NCBI GenBank assembly: GCA_000151295.1
Contig: GG745330.1
Span: 927,115-991,114, forward strand
Source of the DNA: Allomyces macrogynus ATCC 38327
Lineage: Eukaryota; Blastocladiomycota; Blastocladiomycetes; Blastocladiales; Blastocladiaceae
Direction of reading: 5' to 3'
DNA: 64,000 nt
Positions 25,413 to 49,358 of the stretch are shown here, in pieces. The position numbers were made by a program, and so were the translations under genes. The first letter of the stretch is position 1. Each line of letters begins with the position of its first letter. Below the pieces are notes generated by a model. It was not told the DNA's origin and searched no databases. It saw only the letters and a program-made list of their open reading frames with translations.

Positions 25413-28400
25413 TTACGCCGTGATCCGCCGCGACCCCCACCGCTCGCGCCGCGTCTCGACCGACGTCGACACGACATCAATCATGCGCAAGCGCCGGTCC
25501 ATGCCGTACGCGAGGTTGGGCCGCCGCTGCTCGGTCGGCGGGAACCGCGTCACCGTATGCGTCGTGAGCTTGACGCGCGCAATCGTGTCGCGGTCGGTAA
25601 CGCGCGTCGTCATGATGATCGGATCGACGGCCACGTCGTTGCCCGACATAATGCGCTGCATGCCCTCCACTTCGCGCCGCGTGCACATGCGCACGACTGA
25701 CGGCGGCAGCTCCGTCGGCGTCGGTTCACGCCGCAGCTGCTCGAGCGGCGTCGCATAGTCGCCCGATGGCAGCCGCGAGTTGCGAATCACCCACACGTCG
25801 TCGCCGCGCGTAATTAGTTCCGACCCGAGCCGCAAAAAGTAAAACTCCTTGGCCACGGGCGGGCGCAATGGCACTGGTACTGTTGCCGCGCCGCTTGCCG
25901 CCGACGCTGTGCGTGACCGGCGCGCACGCGATTCGTCGGTTGCCGTTTCCTCGACCTCGGCATCGTCGTCGTCGTCGTCAAAATCACCAATCTCGTCTTC
26001 CTCGTCAAACTCGATGACTTCCCACGACGCGTCGAGCGCGATCGCCTGCATCACCGCCGACGACCACAGCGGCGCCGCGCGCGACGGCCGTTCCTTGAGC
26101 GTGCGGAAATGTTGCAGCCGCGACGCGGCCACGCGGTGCAGGAACGATGCCTGGTGAATGGGCCGTAGCGGCGGGTGGTGCTCATAGGGCACGTCGAGCA
26201 TCGGCGGCGCCGTGCGGTCGAGCGCGCCGCCCAACTGGTCCGTATCCTTGAAGTCTTGCCACGCCGTCTCGACCAGGAACCGGTAGAACCGGCTGGTCGT
26301 GAAATGGCGCGGATCAGCGTCGTCCTCGAGCCCTTCGGTCAGCGCAAACAAGTGCCGCCAGTACCACGTCAGCGGCAGCTTGACGACCGTGTACTCGAGC
26401 GTCGCCGGGTCGACGGAGTCCACCTCGTTGACGCGCTCCGAGTCCATGAACAGCTCGTCCTCGTGCGGGTCATATTCAGGCCGGTAAATCGACAGCACCA
26501 TGACGGGCCACATGTGGCTGCGTCGATGACGGCGCGCGGCACCGGACTTGGGGTCGCGCCACGGCTCGGGGTTGGCCATGTCGACGTCCGAGTCGCAGTC
26601 GCTTGGCAGTTCGGCGTCGGGGTCCTTGCGCACAATATCGTTCCACGGCTGGTTTTGACTGCAATATTCGGGTGGAGCAAAAAAAAAAAAAAAAATCAGC
26701 AAAACGCACTGAAACGCAGAGCCAAGGATCGTGCGTCTTTGATCCCAACGTACGCTTTGCGGTCGCGGATAATCTCCTCGTCAATCTCGCGCGCCTCGTC
26801 CTTGGTGAGCGTCATCCAACACACCTGCATGAGCGAGAACCGCGGGAACGGCTTGCCCTGCAGCGACAGCCGGTCGACCTGCCCCAAGAGCGCGTCCACT
26901 TGCGCCGTCATGTTTTCCTGGTCGGTACCCGGCGACGGCTGTGACTCCTCGTGCTTCATCTTGCGCCGCTTCCGGCGCGCATGGTGGCTGCGCCATTCGT
27001 CACCGTCCTCCTCATCGGAGCCGACGCCGCGCGTGTCGTAGACCGGCGCCTTGGTCATCGGCACGCTCTCAGCGCTCGCCTCGTCATCCCAGGCCGTGCC
27101 AGCCGGCGCCGAGCGCTTGGGCGGCGGGCTGGTCGCGGGCTCGCTGGCACTCGACGGGTCCACGTCGGGCATCGGCGGGTGGAGTTGGCTGGGCGCCGGA
27201 GCGTCGGAAGGAGCTGCAACCGACGATATGCGCGGCGAAATATGATCCTCGGCCGTCGTCTGCGCGACCGCGACGTTATCGGCACCAACCACGCGCGGGT
27301 CCGGGACGTCGCTGTCTAGTTCCTGAGCTGCTGCGCGTGCAACCTCGACGCGTTCGACATTGACCGCGAGCGCGCCCGCGTCGTTGCGTGCCGGTTCCTT
27401 GGCCGCCGGCGTCGCCGCGTGCGCGGCCTTGACGTGTTCGGAATAGTCTGCGCCAGCGCTCTCGATTTCGGCCCCACCGACACGTGTTCCCTCGGTTTCC
27501 ACCTTGGCGGCCCGCACTTCATCGACTTTGCGAACCGGTTCCTCGCTGGCGACGGCCAAGTTGTCGTCGATCTGGTCGTCATCTTCAGAGTCCGAGATGA
27601 TGATCACCTCACACTTCCGCGCCTTGGTCGGCTTGGCGATAGCGGCGGCCGGGACCGCGACCTCGTTGCGCGGTTTCGCGATGGCCACCGTCGCGACCGG
27701 CGCCGCCGTGCCCTGGGCATTGCTGCTCGCGAACAGCGAATGGGCCGCGGTTACGGGCGCACGCGTCGTCGTCGGTTCGGGCACAATCGAGATTGGCGCT
27801 CGCGGGTATGACGGCTTGGTCCGGACCGCGGGAGCGGGTCGCTGCGGCGGTGCGGGCGGGTACGGCGCAGGATTCGTGGCCGAAGACGTCGGGATCTGTA
27901 GGAGAGACTGATCAGCGGGACCGCGGGTGCGCGACGAAGAGACCAGCTGCGGCGGCTGCGTCGGTGAGACCGGCAGAACCACGACCGGCCGGCGTGCCTG
28001 CAACCCAGCGGGGCCGCCGAGGTAGATGCGTCGAACCTGCTGGAATTGACTGTTGCGAGACTTGGTCGGCGCGGCGGCCGCGGGCGCGGGCGGCAGCGCG
28101 GGCGCGTGAGCGCGTGTCATCGTCGTCGTCGGCGGCGGCATTGGCGCCGGGGCGTGGTGGCCAATGCCATAGTACGGAACGATCGGCGGTGGTGGAAGGG
28201 CGTCGGTGCCAGGAGCGGGGGCGGTCGGTGGCGGTGGAGCGGTGTAGGTGCCGGGAGCAGGGACGATCGGCGGCGCGCGAGCCGCGAGACCGGGGTAGAC
28301 GAGGCCATAAGGCACGAGTCGTGGAGCACCTCGCTGCCATACCGCATGCTGGACTTGCCGAGGATCGTTTGCCGATCCGGGTGTTGGCGGTGTAGGACGA

Positions 28401-30817
28401 GCCGGTGGGGTTCCACGGCCGGCGGTGCCGCCTTTCAACCCCCAGTTGCCAGATTTGCGCAGCCGCTCCTCTTGCTCGCGCGAGAGTGTGGATTGTGCCG
28501 TCGACGAGGACACGATGCGCGACGGAGGAATCGGGTACGGTCCCGGTCGCGTCGTCGTGGCCAGTCGAGGATCACGAGGGACGGAACGCGACGGCGGCGG
28601 CGGCAGCGGTGCCGAGCTGGACAACGCCCTCGAAACCAGGGCCAGGCGAGGATCGCGAGGTACGGCAGGCAACGGCGTTGCCAAAATCGACGCGCTCAAG
28701 CCTGCAAGCAGGCGAGAGTCGCGCGGAATGGGATGCGGCGGCGGAGCCGTACTCGACGGCGCGCTCGCGGCCAGAGCCAAGCGCGGATCGCGAGGACCGG
28801 CACGCGACGGTGCCGGACTGGACGGCGCGCTAGCAGCTGGGGGCAGGCGCGGATCGCGGGGAACAACGCGCTGCGGCGGCTGCGGCGCCGGATTCCACAA
28901 CGCGGTTGGAGCGGGCGGCAGACGAGGGTCGTGAGGAGATGGAGGCGGATGAGGTGCGAGCGGTGGACGTGGAGCAACTCCAAGTGCGCTTCCACGCGGA
29001 TCGTGAGCGACGGGTGCCGTGAACAGTTGGACATATCCGTGCACTCCTGGCGGCCGTGTACGGCCCGCACCTGGCTGCGCGGGCCATGGCGGGGGCTGCA
29101 CGAACAAATCGTGCGGGTCCACGGTTGCTGGCTGCTCTCCGCGCGCCCGAGCCGCATCGCCCACCGGACCAGGTGGAGATCGAACCAGTGCATTGCGTGC
29201 GGGATCAGGCGGCGGCGGTGGTGCAACGGGACTCGGCGGCTCGAGCAAAACCGACGTGCCGCTGGCTCGCGCGCTGCGTCCATTCACGGCGAAGACATCG
29301 CGAAGCCGTGCCTCATCGTCCGAATCGACACCAACGACGTCAATCTCGGGCGACGGCGAGTGCGGAGGTGGGGGTTGTGCGGTAGCGAGCACGCCAAACC
29401 CGAGATACGACTCGCTGCGCCGCTTCTTGGCCGCAGGCACTGAATCCTCGGCGGCATCCTGCGGGCCAGCGTCGGGGCTGGTTCCTTGACTCGGTCCGGT
29501 CAGCGAAGCTAATCCGCGGGATTGGCGAGCTGCCGCGGGCGCGGACGCGGGCGTCGCCGATTGCGAAAACGACGGCGGCCACGTCTCGCCCGATCCAAAA
29601 TGTTGCTGGCGCGTCGGGGGCGGCTCTGTCAGCTCTTCGCGTAACGTGTCGCTCGCCAAAACGGGCGCGCGAAACGATGATTTGGGTATAGCGCGCGACC
29701 CGATCGGAAGCTTGGAAAGTGCGCGCGCGCGAGCCGCTGCGGCGCGCGATGGCGCGGCCAAGTGAGACGACGAGACTGGCGGGGGCGGCACCGTCAACAG
29801 CGACGGCGGAACCGACGGCACGGACACGGTGCTGGCGGGTGAGCTCGCCGACGACGACGGCTCACTGACCACAGCAGCCTCGCGCTTGCGCTTCTTCGGC
29901 GTCGTTGGAGCCGACCCCGACGCGGTCGCCGATGCGGACGACGACGACGATGCTGCAGCGCTGGCCGACGCCGACTTGCCAGGCTTGGCTGGGTTCTGCT
30001 TTTTGACCTTATTTTCGGGATGACACACCAAACACGTGCACGGATCGCGCTTCTCGGCCTCCGGATCGGACGAGACGCGCAGAAGCCACTCGGCGTGCGG
30101 CTGGAACTCGACGACCGACCGGAACGTGCGCCGCGATGGGTGGCCGTAGATGTAGCGATCCGACCGGCCGGACGGCTTGGTGCGCTTGATCGCGGCGTAC
30201 CCGGGCGGGAATCCGCGCAACCCGAGCCGCGCCGCGACGCGCGCTTCATGATCGTAGTCGCGGTCGATTTGGCCCGGGATTTCGGCAGGCCAGCACAGCG
30301 TCACGCCGTCTGTGAACGTCGGCGGCGCGCGCATGGCCGAATTGGACGCGGGCGCAGGCGCAGGCGCGCGGCTGGTTGTGGACGATGGAACGGGCGGCGA
30401 CAGCTGTTGGCATGGCGATCCGGCCGTGGAGCGCAACGTCGATGGCGACTCGCGGCGCGACAATGGCGGCGGCGTTGCTGGTCGTGCAGGAGCAGCGCGT
30501 GCAGCAGGTACAGCAAGGTGTCGATGAGCTGCAGCTGGTCGTGGTTGCGGTTGAGGTCGGACAGCTCCATCACCATCATCAGCTTGTTGGCCACTTACTA
30601 CAGCTGGACGAGGTTGCACTGCACGTCGAGGAGCAGCGTCAACGGGACGGCGCGTCGGATTGGCCGGGGTAGATCCGGCTCTTGCTCTGCTGGTTGCGGG
30701 TGGAGAGGAGCGTGTACTGGCAAGGGTCAGAGTCGCGGTGAGCGACGCAGCAAGTTCATGGGCAGCTTGGTTGGGCTCATTCTTTGCTGCGGCCTGGCCT
30801 GAGCGCTTGGTCCCCAT
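25413..30817 (-). CDS. clr2: Clr2-like transcriptional silencing protein, very large; 5' end uncertain
   Basis: Main exons: 26754 up to about 30817, then 25413..26658; the 95-nt intron has donor GTACGT, acceptor TTGCAG and an A17 tract. If the start is MGTKRSGQ at 30817 the product is about 1769 aa, far longer than fission yeast Clr2. An N-terminal Clr2 domain (about 29990-30300) has PPGYAAIKRTK, DRYIYGHPSRRTFRSVVEF, HAEWLLRVSSD and CTCLVCHP. About 1000 disordered residues follow, with seven PRDPRL or PRDSRL repeats. The C-terminal region (PLTWYWRHLFALTEG, SRFYRFLVETAWQDF, FLRLGSELITRGDDVWVIRN) fits the Clr2 silencing domain. Clr2 belongs to the SHREC complex, which deacetylates and remodels heterochromatin. 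Between 30380 and 30820 other frames look more natural (LTLLLDVQCNLVQL before GTAAGT), so small first exons are likely. Confidence 0.72.
26679..26695. repeat. Homopolymer A17 inside the Clr2-like intron
   Basis: Seventeen consecutive A on the plus strand, so a T17 polypyrimidine tract on the coding strand, ending 19 nt before the acceptor of the intron 26753-26659. Confidence 0.9.
28540..28900 (-). repeat. Coding repeats PRDPRL in the Clr2-like protein
   Basis: At least seven spaced copies of P-R-D-P/S-R-L separated by 15-20 Ala/Ser/Pro-rich residues (for example PRDPRLALAASAPSS). The DNA repeats too: cgaggatc[gac]cgaggnacgg-like blocks recur on the plus strand. Confidence 0.75.
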
Positions 30818-32178
30818 GGTGCCGTATCGCGATGCACCACCACTTGCGGCACTTCGTCGTGAATCCGAATCTGTGGGGGAATCATGGCGGTAGCGCATGC
30901 AAAATGTCGATGTCGAAGGGGAAGAAGGACGTAAGCAGCAACAACAGCAACAAGAGGAGCGGCAAGTGCGAGACGTGGGAGGAGAGAGTCTCGCACCTTG
31001 GACCACTCTCATCCCAGCAGCAGCTGGCGCACCAACCCAACCTCCAAGCGTCCTTGCTTTTGCAGGTTCCTTGTCCTGAGCAAGTCCTTGCTGCTCTGAG
31101 GCCATGACAGTGGACACGATCCTGCAATGGTGGTGCTATGATTTGAGCCAAAATCGAGTCAAACACCACGTTAGTAATCAACGAGGGCAAACTTTCAGAC
31201 AAGAAGCATGGGAAGGGGGGGTGGGGGGGCAGCACAAGAACAGCAGGGGCAGATGCAGGATGAAGCAACCAAGAGTGAAGCGTCAAGGAAAGGAGCCATT
31301 GGTCACTTGGCGTCTCTTGACCCCACCATCCCCAAGCTCTTAACTTCTCAGATGGGTATCCAAGGCAACACCAGCACACCTGCTTGGGCATGCTGGTGCC
31401 ATTGGTGATGACCATGGTGCCCTGTCCATGGTCAGGGACATGGTGGGGGGACCATGGCTGGGACTGAGCTCAGAAGCACAACCATTGTCGTCTCAAGACG
31501 GGTGTTTGGCCTCCTGGAAAAGATGGAGCACAAGCAGCACCTTGACAATTGACAAAGGCACAAGAAGCAAACGTCTTGGCAGCCTGAGGCCTGGTTGTGG
31601 CGTTGAAGATGGGTTGCTGGCACTTGGACAAGCACGTTTCCTGTCTCAGACATCCTTGGTGAGAGAGGACAGGGTGCTGCGAGGTGTTGCGACGTGTTGC
31701 GAGATGTTCATGTGAGGTGTTGCGAGGCGTGGCGAAGATTTGGGGGTTTTGCAAGGATTTTTGCGGTTGAGAGGTTCTGCAAGCATTTGCATGGATTTGG
31801 CAGGATTTGCGAGGATATTCGAGGTTTGTGATTTTCGTCAAATCATCGATCCTGCTCTGCCAAAACTTATTCTCTTTTCCAAAACCTATCCCAGTCACAA
31901 ACGATCATCAACAGCGAGCAACAGCAGCTGGCACACACCAACACGACTTAGCTCTGGCCGCCACCAACACCAGCAGACCAAGCACCAACCAAATTCCAGC
32001 ACGAGTAGCAGCAACGAGACGACCCTAGTTCCCGCCGGCAACCAGTTTTATTGCGTGTTGACACGGTTCTGGCAACTCAACGGCCAGCACCTCACAGCTG
32101 CCGCCCAACGACCACGCCAGCGGACCAACTCCACCCACCAACCATTGATATACAGTGCAGCCGCGCACTCGAATCGTC
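30818..32178. other. Intergenic region with CpG-poor stretch; upstream of Mgm1 and of Clr2
   Basis: About 1.36 kb between divergent genes. From about 31100 to 31660 the DNA changes character: CpG is scarce and TG/CA rich (tgcttgggcatgctggtgcc), unlike the CpG-rich surroundings. Short frames on both strands have ordinary amino-acid composition but no recognisable domain. From 31668 an imperfect ttgcgaggtg repeat follows. The last 300 bp before 32179 are AT-richer and probably include the Mgm1 promoter. I interpret the CpG-poor part as a transposon or repeat relic. Confidence 0.45.
31668..31736. repeat. Imperfect short tandem repeat (tgttgcgaggtgttgcgac)
   Basis: About five diverged copies of an 11-nt unit resembling gtgttgcgagg are arranged head to tail. 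The following 90 bp (gatttgcgaggatattcgagg) look like further decayed copies. Confidence 0.6.
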
Positions 32179-36167: not shown

Positions 36168-38997
36168 TCAGTTCTCTTCAGTCTCCCGATCCGGTTCCTG
36201 TGGCGGCGCCATCGCCGCGTCCCGCGCCGACGCGCTCACATTGCTCCCGGCCGAGCCAGGCGGTGAACGACGCGGTGCCGACGACGCCGGGCGAGACCGA
36301 CGGATGCTGGATCGCGGCCGGCTTGGCTGGGTGGCATGTTGATCGGAATCAGCGGCCAAGTCATTCGTTGATCCATTGTTCACTGCAGCTGCGCTCGTCG
36401 CGGATGGCGGCTTGGCCGACCCAGGCCGCGAGACCATGGACATCGTCGACGCGATTCCGAGCGCATCTCTGCCCCCAACATCGTCGTCGGGCCTTTTCAT
36501 GTCGGCCGTCAGGTCGTGCACAATTTGGTCCGGTAGCGGCACGTCCTTGGCGGCCGCCTCGGCCTCGAGCTCCGGCAAAATGCCGTAAATGGCCTGGTGC
36601 GCTGCGAGCAAATACTTTTGCTGGCTGTGCTGGACCTGCGTGCGCAGCAGCCGCTTCTCTGTCTCCTGGAACAGGAACGACGACACGAGATTGGCCACGA
36701 CCGTGTCGGGCGCGTCCTCGGCGACAGGCGGGGCCAAATTACCGCCGTTCCCCACCACCGCGCCGGCCACAGCTGCCACCGGGTCGGCCGCTTCGTCGAT
36801 TGCGCGGCGCACGCGCTCGCGCGCGCTCATTTCGGCCGTCTCCTGGATCCCTTGCGCAATGATTTCCTCGAGGAACGAGTCGACCGTTTCCTGATGCACG
36901 TGCATGACTTGGCGGAACACCTCGTCCTGCTCTTGCCGCCGTGCGAGCTCGACTTGCCGGCGCCCGGCCTCTTGCGCCTCGCGCATGCGCCGCGTGCGCT
37001 CGACGAGCATGGCCATGGCTGAGAGCCGCTTCTCCTCTTCGAGCCGCTTGAGCTCCTTGTGAATAAAGTCGAGCTGCTGGCCGACAAACTCGGCCTGGAC
37101 CGTGTCCTCGAACAGCTGCTCTTGCCGCTCCGCGAGCGTCTCGACTCGCTCCGTGAGCTGGGCGGCCCGACCGGCGGCATCGGTCGTGACGGCGCCGCGC
37201 TCGTCGGCGACGGCCTGGTCCACGACCAGCACGAGCCGCAGTTCATTTATGAGATCCTGCCGCTTTTCCTTGCCCTGGAGCATCGCGAGCTGCACGGCGC
37301 GACCACGCAACCATCGCTGAATGACGAGCGCCGTCTGGTACCGTGCCTCGACTTCCGGGTCGGGCGCCACGACCGTCGGAGTCAGCGGTCGCGGCGCCGG
37401 CTTGGGCACGGGCTGCAGGAACCGCAGCGGCCGCTTGTCCGATGCCTCGGCCTTGTGCTTCATTTCCTTGAGCTTCTGGTCCATTTTCTCGAGTTGCGCG
37501 AGCATGCTGGCTTCCTTGCGCGCGGCGGGGGTTTGAATCGGGTTCAGGCACGGTTCCGTCAAGTTGGGCTGCGTGACGGTCGGCGGGAACAGCGACTCGA
37601 GGTGCGCGAGCGTCGAGTACTGGTTCAAGTCATGGAACCCGACCGTCGCCGCGTGCTGCTGGCTCGCGGCGCTCGTCGAGACCCCGGGCGTCGCGGGTGG
37701 GCCGCCCACAATCGTGACGTTAGGCGCACCGCTGCCGACATCCGCGAGCCGAGCCGCCGCGAGCGTGCGCTGCTTGTGAATTCGGTCCATGACCGACTGC
37801 ATGTAGGTCGGGATCCCATCGCGCGGTTTCGGCAGGTAGACGTCGGACGCCGGGTTCGCGTACTCGGCAATAATATCGCGACGCGTCGGCGCGGCCTCGA
37901 GCTTGGCGCGTTTAGCCGCGAGTTTCCGCAGTTCCTTGGCGCGGCGCGCGTCCATTTTCGCCCGCAACGCGTCCTTCTCAGCTAGTGTCCGCTGCCAAAT
38001 GCGGTGCATGCGCTCGGCCGCGGCACGCTCGTTATCCTCGGCGCGTTGCGCGAGCACCTTGGCCAAGATCGCGAGCCGCCGTTCCTGCAGTTGCCGAATC
38101 TCGCGCTCGCGGTCCTCCCACTCGCGCAGTTCCATGGCCTCCATCATCTTGAGCCGCCGCTGGAACGAGGCCTCGTCAGTGACTTCCGGCAACGTCGCCT
38201 CCCATCGCCGCTTGGCACGCGCGCGCTCGATCATTTCAATTTCGGCGAGTCCAGCGGGCAGGCCGGCACCCCACTTGAGGTTGGCGAGCGCGAGCAGCTC
38301 CGGGCGGTCAGCGGCGCTCGCCATGACGTAGTCGGGCGAGTACGGGTCGGTCTGCGCTTCAGACTCGCGGTATAGCGTCTGTACGGCCAAGGTACGCGTT
38401 GCCGGCGCCGGTGGCGCAGCGGCCGCGGCCGCGGCCGCATTGGTGTCGTCATTGGCGGCGGGTGGGGCTGGCGTCTTGCGCGCAAATACGAGCTGGCCAC
38501 CCGGGTTGTCGGTGTAGGGGATCAGCGGCTTGCGAAAGTACTTGTACCTGTTGGTGCCCGTGACTTGCGGGTGCGTGTTGATCGGCACGTAGCGGTTCTG
38601 GCCGAGCGAAGGGTCGACGGGGGCGATGCGGACTTGGATCGAGTGAGACGGGTAGGTGCGCACTTGCGAAAACATGTTGTCAAAGTGCGGTACAATGGCC
38701 TGGATGGGCGTGATGCGTGAGGAGCATGTCCGATGGCGATGGTAACGGATGGGACGGGGCAAGCGTACCGCGCGCACGGTCTGCGAGCCCGATAGGGCCT
38801 TCAAGTGGTCTTTGTAGCATGATACCGTGTAGAGTGGGTCTGGACGGTGGAGGGGCGTAGACGGAGCGTTACGGTTGGAGGAGTGGCGAGATAGAGGGCA
38901 ATCAATGGCCCATTTTTGGTGCGTGGTGTTGACATTGCTCACCATAGAGGTAGTCGTTGGGCCGGCTGGCCTGGACGCGCGTCACTGTCGAGGACAT
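36168..38997 (-). CDS. CFAP91: Cilia- and flagella-associated protein 91 (CFAP91/MAATS1)
   Basis: Exons 38943..38997, 38769..38839 and 36168..38699 (885 aa). The introns are 103 nt (donor GTGAGC) and 69 nt (donor GTACGC); the second could be read through in frame but interrupts conserved sequence. The start is MSSTVTRVQASRPNDYLY, joined by splicing to DPLYTVSCYKDHLK. HFDNMFSQVRTYPSHSIQV, TNRYKYFRKPLIPYT and the family signature VQTLYRESEAQTDPYSPDYV follow, then long charged coiled coils (residues about 240-340 and 560-700), and a Ser/Pro-rich end. CFAP91 (FAP91) ties radial spokes and the calmodulin-spoke complex to the axoneme. Its presence implies a motile cilium. It is divergent from RAD9 with about 460 bp between the starts. 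Confidence 0.85.
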
Positions 38998-47249: not shown

Positions 47250-48974
47250 TCACTGCACACTCCACACTCGGACGGGGAACCGGCGTTGGCAGGGGGGAGT
47301 ACATCCGCGATTCAACATGTGAGTCACCTCATGTATGGGCATGTCCTCATTGTGCAATCCAGCCAATGCAGGCTCATTGGGTTGGGCTGCTGGTATGGCA
47401 ATGGAACCCCAGGGCTCAGCATCTGGAGAAGCTCCCTCATGCATGGGCATGTCCTCTTTGCATGTCATGTCCCTGCACATGGCAGCATCATTGGCCTAGC
47501 CATCAAGGCCATGTTGCTGCTTACTCAAATTACTCTTGCCCATGGCCATGTCTTGGTCACAAAGTCCATCAACACAAGGCTCACCAGACATGGGCAGCAG
47601 TGATGTCGCCTCATCTTGCTGACCAGAACCTTGCTCATGGGCGTGCACTTCTTTTGCAAGCTGCTGGAGTGTGTGCAAGTCGATACCAGCCAGTGCAATC
47701 CACACCTTGCCCTGCTTGCAATGAGCATGCCAATTGTGTGGTGGAGTGTCAGCTGCAACCTGTACACCCTCAGGGATAAACTGCAGAATCTGAACACCAT
47801 CTTGTTGCTTGCCTTGCCCTTGTGCTTGGTCATCAGTGGCAGTACCCAGCAGTGGCATGGCATGCAGCATGCCAAAATCAGGAACAAGGCCACAAATGTC
47901 AAAGGCATACTTGGGGTTCTGCAAGATGAACAGGTTGTAGTCAACAATGTGCACACACACTTGTACAGAAACATGTTGAGCTACAGCTTCAAGCCATGGT
48001 GGCAAATGGTTGTGACCCACTTGTTGATCACCACATAAAAATCACAATGCATCTTGCAATTGGATGGGTTCCCTGTGGCATGTTGGTCTTGAGGTGGCAC
48101 CAGTGGCAGCCACAATTTGACAAGGCCTGCAAATGGGTTGATACAACGCCCAACAGCATAGCAAAAACATGCAATGAACGTTTTCTGACATGTTCTTGGC
48201 AATCTCCTGGAACAGGTAATCAAACGACCTGGTAAAGAGTGAGCAATTGGCAAATGGCGCATTGAGGTGATGCACATGGCACAGGTACTCAGATGCAAAC
48301 AGGCCAAGCCTGTCACAGTTGGGGATGCTATAGACAAGAAAGTCAGCAACCTGGTTGGTGACCATGATGGCCTTCAACAGCTATGTACAGTGGAGATTCA
48401 GGCAAGTTGACATGTCACAAGGAAAGTGTATAGCACAAGAGAGCAAGAGTGCATTGATCATGACCATGTCATTGGACAACCTGTAGGCCTCTTTAGCATA
48501 GAGCAACCCATTGCAAAAATCTTCATTGGCATGACATGCATGGTAGCACAAGTAGAGAGTCACCTCAGTTGTGGCAAAACCATGCACAATGACAAGCCAC
48601 TCAGACTGGACCTCAATGACAGTACACATGGCCAAGTACTCAGGTGCATCAACAAGTGTGCAGTGAAGAGTTTGGGGAATGACCAAAGAAATGGGCACAC
48701 ACACTTGATTGCTTGGTGCAGTGGCTGAAACAACTGGGACACTTGGGGTGACACCTGGTGTGACATCCTTGACTGGTGCAGGTAGAATAGGCTCTGCAAC
48801 AGGTGCAGCATCACTGGATGCAGTATTGACAGGCAGAATATTGGCCATGGCAACACATGCCAGGTCTGAATTAAGGAAAACGACATGGTGAATGAGAAAA
48901 CGTGCAGAATGCAAGGAGACCATGAGCAGAAATGCAGACAGGCAAGGTTCCAAAAGTCGGAGTGAAGTGAGCAC
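47250..48974 (-). pseudogene. Decayed CpG-poor coding element, transposon-like, unidentified
   Basis: One reading frame runs from 48974 to 47250 (575 codons) interrupted only by stops at 48381-48383 (TAG), 48042-48044 (TGA) and 47496-47498 (TAG). Each is one C-to-T step from CAG or CGA. The peptide has normal composition: a Pro/Val-rich start (MANILPVNTASSDAAPVAEP from 48848), then helical, Cys/His/Leu-containing segments such as DFLVYSIPNCDRLGLFASEY, SFDYLFQEIAKNMSENVHCM and VHIVDYNLFILQNPKYAFDI. The DNA is strikingly CpG-poor and rich in CA/TG, unlike every flanking gene. I recognise no transposase, integrase, reverse transcriptase or gag motif, and no terminal repeats were found by eye. 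It lies between SNM1 and the mucin-like gene. An intact host gene with unusual codon use and short introns is the alternative, but it is less likely. Confidence 0.55.
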
Positions 48975-49358
48975 ATGATCACACAGAAGACAGCAGCTGA
49001 AGGTCAGGCCCTCCTGATGTGCTCCCTTTCAAACAGTGGCAAAAAACATGATGCTCTTGCACAGACAGATCAAAACAGCCAGACAAAAACAAGACGCAAA
49101 AAATGTGCAAACCAAAACCGGGTCCTGCAAAGGCCTCGCTCAACAAAAGCACACGACGTCCAAGCGTCACAGCCAACACCAGGCGGCCCTTCCATGCCCA
49201 AACTCAACACGACAGCCCACACAACAGCCAGGCAAGGCCGCCCGCGACTCTTCACGCACGTCCCCTCTCCACTCCTCCTCATCCGACCCCCGAGAACGCC
49301 GCCTGCACCAGCAGTCGCCCTCTCGCTCTAAGAAAGCACATCTGCACCACTCACCCGC

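Follow-up and report, generated by a model that had tools for sequence, protein, structure and literature searches.

The window and its CpG-poor insert

We have studied a window of 64,000 nt, positions 927115–991114 of contig C73 in the genome assembly of Allomyces macrogynus (54.0 Mb, 75 contigs). Its contigs seem to form two homeologous sets, since DEAD-box matches recur at equal or near-equal scores on the contig pairs C73/C75, C62/C64, C69/C71 and C55/C63. Positions 1–62121 of the window are collinear, with gaps, with C75:2046536–2111982 at 76–87% identity; all comparisons with C75 cover this part, the last 1.9 kb lying outside the compared C75 DNA. Among the genes present, the CFAP91 ORF (36168–38945) has 91% identity with Allomyces javanicus and 90% with A. 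arbusculus, which are the best two of 119 matches. The features which concern us here are listed below; most of them are defined by comparison with a Fanzor gene found on contig C64.

47312–49029, no strand: CpG-depleted insert without counterpart in homeologous C75; edges approximate
47321–48994, minus strand: homologue of the 5' part of the C64 Fanzor gene, 77% DNA identity
48459–48848, minus strand: remnant of exon 1, from the former start codon; end placed by eye with C64 and the A. arbusculus protein
48381–48458, minus strand: intron remnant of 78 bp (79 in C64), donor GT changed to AT; its last three bases are stop 1
47321–48380, minus strand: remnant of the first part of exon 2, ending before the nuclease domain; from C64 homology
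48167, minus strand: insertion of one base with respect to C64, which exposes stop 2; it lies in a T run and its placement is approximate
47981–47983, minus strand: TAG in the ancestral frame where C64 has CAG, masked by the frameshift
47496–47498, minus strand: TAG in the ancestral frame where C64 has CAG; this is stop 3

The median CpG observed/expected ratio (O/E) of the window is 1.30. In six consecutive 500-bp windows starting at 47251 to 48501 it is only 0.04–0.24, while TG and CA have O/E values of about 1.8–2.1. The insert as a whole has a CpG O/E of 0.097 (10 CpGs, 103.4 expected), very far from a normal ratio, in surroundings of about 1.3. A first-pass annotation had described this DNA as poor in CpG and rich in CA/TG, as is indeed the case, and as opposite in this respect to all neighbouring genes. 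The latter is true with a single exception, a second CpG-poor patch at about 30.75–31.75 kb.

The same annotation had noted a minus-strand frame of 1.7 kb with three internal stops, and this is what we find: the frame is interrupted solely by TAG at 48381–48383 (stop 1), TGA at 48042–48044 (stop 2) and TAG at 47496–47498 (stop 3), and ends with TGA at 47250–47252. It is not open by chance: not one of 2000 first-order Markov sequences with the same dinucleotides came down to four stops in its most open frame, the lowest count being 6 and the mean 14.3. Pfam gave no match for the stop-free pieces 48384–48857 and 47499–48020 of the fragment. ARAGORN and Rfam (gathering thresholds) gave no match across the whole 64-kb window.

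A relative on contig C64: the Fanzor gene

Fanzor genes are transposon-borne and code for CRISPR-like nucleases. A DNA search of the genome with the CpG-poor sequence found one other copy, C64:429779–431399, with 78% identity; it is thus not a single-copy sequence. A local alignment has 1320 identical columns out of 1707 (77%). The C64 copy has a normal CpG content: all 300-bp windows of the C64 stretch (L002) have an O/E of at least 0.88. Its gene, with uninterrupted frames, has an exon 1 which starts at the ATG (L002:1574) and ends at 1966, an intron of 79 bp, a frame of 857 codons, a further intron and a frame of 560 codons; the ends of the introns were set by eye using protein P0001 of A. 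arbusculus. With the 857-aa frame as query we found one match in all, GGF31_001143 of A. arbusculus (1227 aa), with 86% identity over 58% of the query; it too contains PF07282.

The 560-codon frame contains PF07282 (TNB zinc-ribbon, C-terminal half) with E 5.6e-13, and P0001 contains it with E 7.2e-13. Both are also matched by the Fanzor/TnpB motif D-X(125,275)-[TS]-[TS]-X-X-C4 finger-X(5,50)-RD, written as a regular expression of our own, in which we chose the spacing of the zinc finger, with a last gap of 3–50; the motif is absent from the window copy. Similarity of the 560-aa ORF to solved Cas12f, TnpB-like and Fanzor chains is weak (E 0.024–0.13), and some of the nine matches with E up to 1 are plainly unrelated. 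A long variable N-terminal half precedes the part of the C64 gene which carries PF07282 and the motif.

Judged by this homology, the CpG-poor sequence of the window is the beginning of a Fanzor gene: 5' UTR, exon 1, an intron and a part of exon 2. The window copy is assigned to Fanzor by homology only, because the half with the nuclease (PF07282) is missing. The first-pass annotation had recognised no protein family and had proposed a possibly undescribed type of element. This is not so: its C64 relative is a Fanzor gene, with PF07282 and motif, and the fragment corresponds to the variable N-terminal part of this TnpB-like gene, whose family is already known in A. macrogynus. Bao and Jurka (2013, PMC3627910) describe Fanzor1 as eukaryotic homologues of TnpB and list three Fanzor1 families for this species. 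The C64 gene resembles the Fanzor1 genes of that paper in its PF07282 domain, its motif and its long variable N-terminal half, and is probably of the Fanzor1 type. The window copy differs from the genes described there: it is a broken variable N-terminal part, with the nuclease half lost.

Stop codons and coding constraint

The three stops are of a different nature. All of them had been presented as one C-to-T change away from CAG, CGA and CAG, respectively. The statement is right for stop 3, which is CAG in C64. Stop 1 is also TAG in C64, where it forms the acceptor end of the intron, and the A. arbusculus protein passes over it from exon 1 to exon 2. Stop 2 lies out of the ancestral frame, behind the 1-bp insertion near 48167, and C64 has the same GTGAT: it is a product of the frameshift. 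Introns at the three stop positions, which had been mentioned as a possible objection, are thus found in the relative for one of the three. The frame appears continuous because the former intron has lost one base, from 79 to 78 bp. In the ancestral frame there are two nonsense codons, 47981–47983 and 47496–47498, both of them CAG-to-TAG changes in CpA, neither in CpG. Stops in frames of this kind may therefore be intron ends or effects of frameshifts, rather than traces of deamination.

Comparison with C64 gives no sign of selection on the protein. CpG has changed to TG or CA in 31/33, 41/46 and 66/71 cases according to the codon phase of the C, and in 8/12 outside the coding frame. The other differences are also evenly found at the three codon positions (55/379, 49/404 and 54/365). 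In 479 codons compared among the window, C64 and A. arbusculus, the window alone differs in 147, C64 alone in 15 and A. arbusculus alone in 22; all three differ in 12 and there is no difference in 283. On this comparative evidence the window copy is a sequence which has decayed without coding constraint.

Mutation spectrum

The window copy can be aligned with 162 CpGs of C64, of which 80 are found as TG and 66 as CA (146 in all), 6 are still CG, 2 are TA and 8 have other sequences: the loss is symmetric between the two strands. In the flanking homeologous DNA, 5902 of 7429 CpGs of C75 are kept. When C-to-T changes from C64 to the insert are counted by context, with CA/TG swaps set aside, we find 152/324 in CpG, 10/229 in CpA, 14/204 in CpC and 12/196 in CpT. 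Reading in the reverse direction, from the window to C64, gives C-to-T values of 0.011–0.083 in all contexts. In the flanks, counted without the patch at 30.9–31.75 kb, C-to-T in CpG is 913/14858 (0.061) and does not exceed the value for CpT (0.082). The high mutability thus belongs to the insert, since the CpGs of the flanking homeologous DNA show no raised C-to-T. The changes are also directional: C-to-T and G-to-A together amount to 220 from C64 to the window versus 63 in the opposite direction. The preceding base makes no marked difference, as C has changed to T in 23/42 cases after T, 18/34 after A, 21/42 after C and 21/45 after G.

Most sites have been hit once, as TA products are nearly absent; this fits a loss of one C which ends symmetric methylation. 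There are also 31 CA/TG swaps between the window copy and C64, which correspond to further ancestral CpGs lost in both copies; therefore C64 has lost some as well. Change of CpG to TpG or CpA in both strands with little else, as is typical for deamination of 5-methylcytosine in CpG, is found in the insert and is absent from the flanks. To us the spectrum resembles what methylation of CpG on both strands and later deamination would leave, and not what RIP of the CpA type would leave. The idea that this is decayed mobile-element DNA, already proposed in the first-pass annotation, is borne out: CpG has been lost through C-to-T changes and the loss is restricted to the insert.

The insertion site

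Contig C75 has no counterpart of the region at about 47312–49029 (roughly 1.7 kb), and is aligned with the window on both sides. On the left there is a weak homology up to 47311 (score 40; best of 100 shuffles 33). On the right the homology with C75 is back at 49029 or at 49040, depending on the scoring, and the stretch before this edge shows no homology with C75 (score 12.5; best of 100 shuffles 19.5). The limits of CpG depletion are similar. It begins after a CpG at 47308; on the right CpGs return at 49095, so that about 65 bp beyond the resumption of C75 homology are free of CpG. The site is not cleanly empty, since C75 has there about 300 bp of its own. We searched 70–80 bp at the edges, which are only roughly known, for a target-site duplication or terminal repeats, and found one direct match of 6 bp and no inverted match of 7 bp. 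Transversions between the two Fanzor copies amount to 71/1673 (4.2%), against 3133/55820 (5.6%) between the homeologs, where genes and spacers are mixed. The lower value fits an insertion after the homeologs split, as a rough indication between sequences under different constraint.

Origin and decay of the insert

We are fairly confident of the following history. The 5' part of a gene of Fanzor1 type would have been copied at the level of DNA and inserted between two genes in the C73 homeolog. It is not a retrocopy, as the intron is still present. The insert would then have been treated as foreign DNA and its CpGs presumably methylated on both strands, probably by an enzyme of the DNMT1 type coded in the genome. 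Deamination of 5-methylcytosine to T would have turned each CpG into TG or CA, and decay may have mostly halted at this stage because the remaining dinucleotide has lost the symmetry of a CpG target. The window copy should now encode nothing. The homology, the absence from C75, the symmetric spectrum restricted to the insert and the lack of coding constraint are observed; we infer methylation, the enzyme, the order of insertion and decay, and the means by which the copy moved. Several facts count against this history: both true nonsense changes are in CpA, the C75 site has its own 300 bp or so, the edges gave no clear target-site duplication or terminal repeat, and C64 has also lost CpGs. Moreover, as shown below, some CpG-poor reverse-transcriptase matches lie in open frames, and one of two SRA hits is also poor in CpG.

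A gene for a DNMT1-like enzyme is present in this genome. A profile search found PF00145 above the cut-off at no fewer than nine loci. An ORF of C53 matches DNMT1 chains with E down to 2.3e-53 and, by eye, an ORF of C65 is a near copy of it. They form a pair of DNMT1-like cytosine methyltransferase genes, C65:207128–208804 and C53:820670–822344, apparently homeologs. A BAH domain is suggested by a match below the cut-off.

The fragment might instead have been CpG-poor on arrival, having decayed elsewhere before a piece was moved, and its decay would then say nothing about the present site. Other CpG-poor Fanzor relics do exist in the genome, and the coincidence between the edges of decay and of homology is also expected of a moved piece. 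We consider this unlikely, as the DNA search found no CpG-poor sister, its sole match being C64 with normal CpG, and the 65 bp or so free of CpG beyond the right edge of homology hint at an action in place. It is similarly improbable that the insert was present before the homeologs split and was later deleted from C75. Such a deletion would agree with a site where both sides have changed, C75 having about 300 bp which the window does not have, but the transversions quoted above are fewer between the Fanzor copies than between the homeologs, even if constraint differs.

The other two alternatives have very little in their favour. RIP, a premeiotic C-to-T mutation of duplicated DNA which affects both copies, would account for C-to-T changes in a duplicated stretch and for their strong excess in one direction. 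We reject it as very improbable on account of the spectrum, with no increase in CpA and 2 TA products out of 162, and of the spared C64 partner, which has kept a normal CpG content; in addition, reverse-transcriptase copies of equal score in which long frames are still open are numerous, and the two that we sampled from the top group have normal CpG. That this is a working gene whose composition is unusually poor in CpG is hardly credible. One of the stops does coincide with an intron end in the relative, but two nonsense changes, at least two frameshifts, a lost donor site, the uniform distribution of changes over codon positions and the missing nuclease part speak strongly against it, and we reject it.

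A more general proposal can be made, which we put forward as speculative and rather doubtful: Allomyces would recognise new mobile inserts almost to their edges and methylate their CpGs whatever their copy number, while the source gene would be spared, so that the edge of the mark would be the edge of the foreign DNA. This would mean a methylation defence guided by sequence, for example by small RNAs, which reads the identity of an insert and not its repetition. The history of such hits could then be read from CpG content alone.

Comparison with known systems

RIP of Ascomycota also produces C-to-T changes in duplicated DNA. The likeness ends there: our insert has been hit at CpG and not at CpA, in one copy only and with almost no TA. 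CpG-type decay of transposons, together with a Masc2-like DNMT1, is reported in Microbotryum, Melampsora and Puccinia (Amselem et al. 2015, PMC4352252). Allomyces shares with them a C-to-T signature of transposons restricted to CpG and a gene of the DNMT1 family. It differs in belonging to another phylum and in the absence from the insert of any preference for T before CpG, whereas TpCpG was reported in Microbotryum. In Spizellomyces and other early-branching fungi 5mC is described as confined to transposons (PMC12695648); this is the present-day state which presumably causes such decay. The Spizellomyces paper reports measured methylation, whereas in Allomyces it is the mutational trace that we observe. 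According to a 2026 review (PMC13297926), 6mA dominates in early-diverging fungi, among them Blastocladiomycota, and has taken over almost entirely from 5mC. The trace in the insert suggests that CpG methylation has acted strongly and locally on mobile DNA in Allomyces.

Fanzor1 in A. macrogynus and CpG-type transposon decay were thus already known; what we add is an example from Allomyces with an internal control. A single assembly of Blastocladiomycota contains the insert, its relative of normal CpG content and a homeologous site from which the insert is absent, which makes a controlled case of CpG-specific decay. Literature searches on Blastocladiomycota, early-diverging fungi or Allomyces with methylation, and on chytrids with RIP, gave no CpG decay in Allomyces among the titles and abstract beginnings of the matches listed. 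In a search on Fanzor and CpG decay none of the matches listed mentions Fanzor, so this result has little weight.

Other CpG-poor sequences in the genome

We also determined CpG values for a sample of loci: 14 of at least 55 RVT_1 matches and 6 of at least 39 DEAD matches, hand-picked across the range of scores, all 7 of the listed PF07282 matches, and 12 of at least 16 PF00145 matches, at 9 loci. The CpG-poor share is 5/14 for RVT_1, 3/7 for PF07282, 0/6 for DEAD and 0/9 loci for PF00145. The Fisher test for 8/21 versus 0/15 gives p 0.011, with two SRA hits left out and related loci treated as independent. PF07282 is found at seven loci or more, three with a CpG O/E of 0.14–0.20 (C69, C47 and C74) and four with 0.93–1.40. 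The RVT_1 stretches are also divided, with five at 0.03–0.37 and nine at 1.09–1.49; 3 of the 14 contain masked bases. All six DEAD-box stretches sampled have 1.28–1.44, all 12 PF00145 stretches 1.09–1.47, and the two SRA hits 1.34 and 0.33. As the values are split in this way, decay picks out certain mobile copies, and copy number by itself does not account for it.

The CpG-poor Fanzor-like relics are L016 (C69:844447), L021 (C47:487499), L046 (C74:770787) and L014 (C71:516845). The last one is weakly similar to the N-terminal region of C64 (27%, E 1.8e-6). The C69 relic still has an open frame of 229 codons with PF07282 (E 4.3e-11), despite its CpG O/E of 0.18. It is 73–83% identical to the C47 copy in three pieces, with 33 CA/TG swaps, so the two have decayed partly independently. 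With respect to the less decayed L018 and L020, 62 of their CpGs are TG or CA in C69, and 5 show the reverse; the change in this second Fanzor group is thus as one-sided as in the insert.

A low CpG content is not equivalent to a broken gene, since two of the five CpG-poor reverse-transcriptase matches are found in open frames: C69:1588615–1589088 (584 codons, O/E 0.13) and C59:411599–412081 (508 codons, O/E 0.37). These two elements either stayed open while losing CpG or have adapted. The SRA hit with low CpG is L050 (C62:761716–761874), a weak match to the domain (E 3.5e-7) in a frame of 90 codons, possibly what decay has left of an SRA gene copy.

The second CpG-poor patch of the window (30750–31750) is present in both homeologs, being also found at C75:2076750–2078250; 500-bp windows have 0.26–0.61 in the window and 0.07–0.51 in C75. 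It adjoins and overlaps the 5' end of an ORF with a Clr2 domain (26696–31117, minus strand). There are 10 CA/TG swaps between the homeologs in a few hundred aligned bases. Perhaps it is a relic which predates the split of the homeologs and continued to decay in both.

Downstream of the Fanzor gene in C64 there is an ORF for a C48 peptidase of the Ulp1 type (L008:5652–7154, E 8.7e-33), which may belong to the element. Stretches from the 3' end of the Fanzor gene onward recur on C45, C63 and C55, and by eye the A. arbusculus gene model extends into this downstream region.
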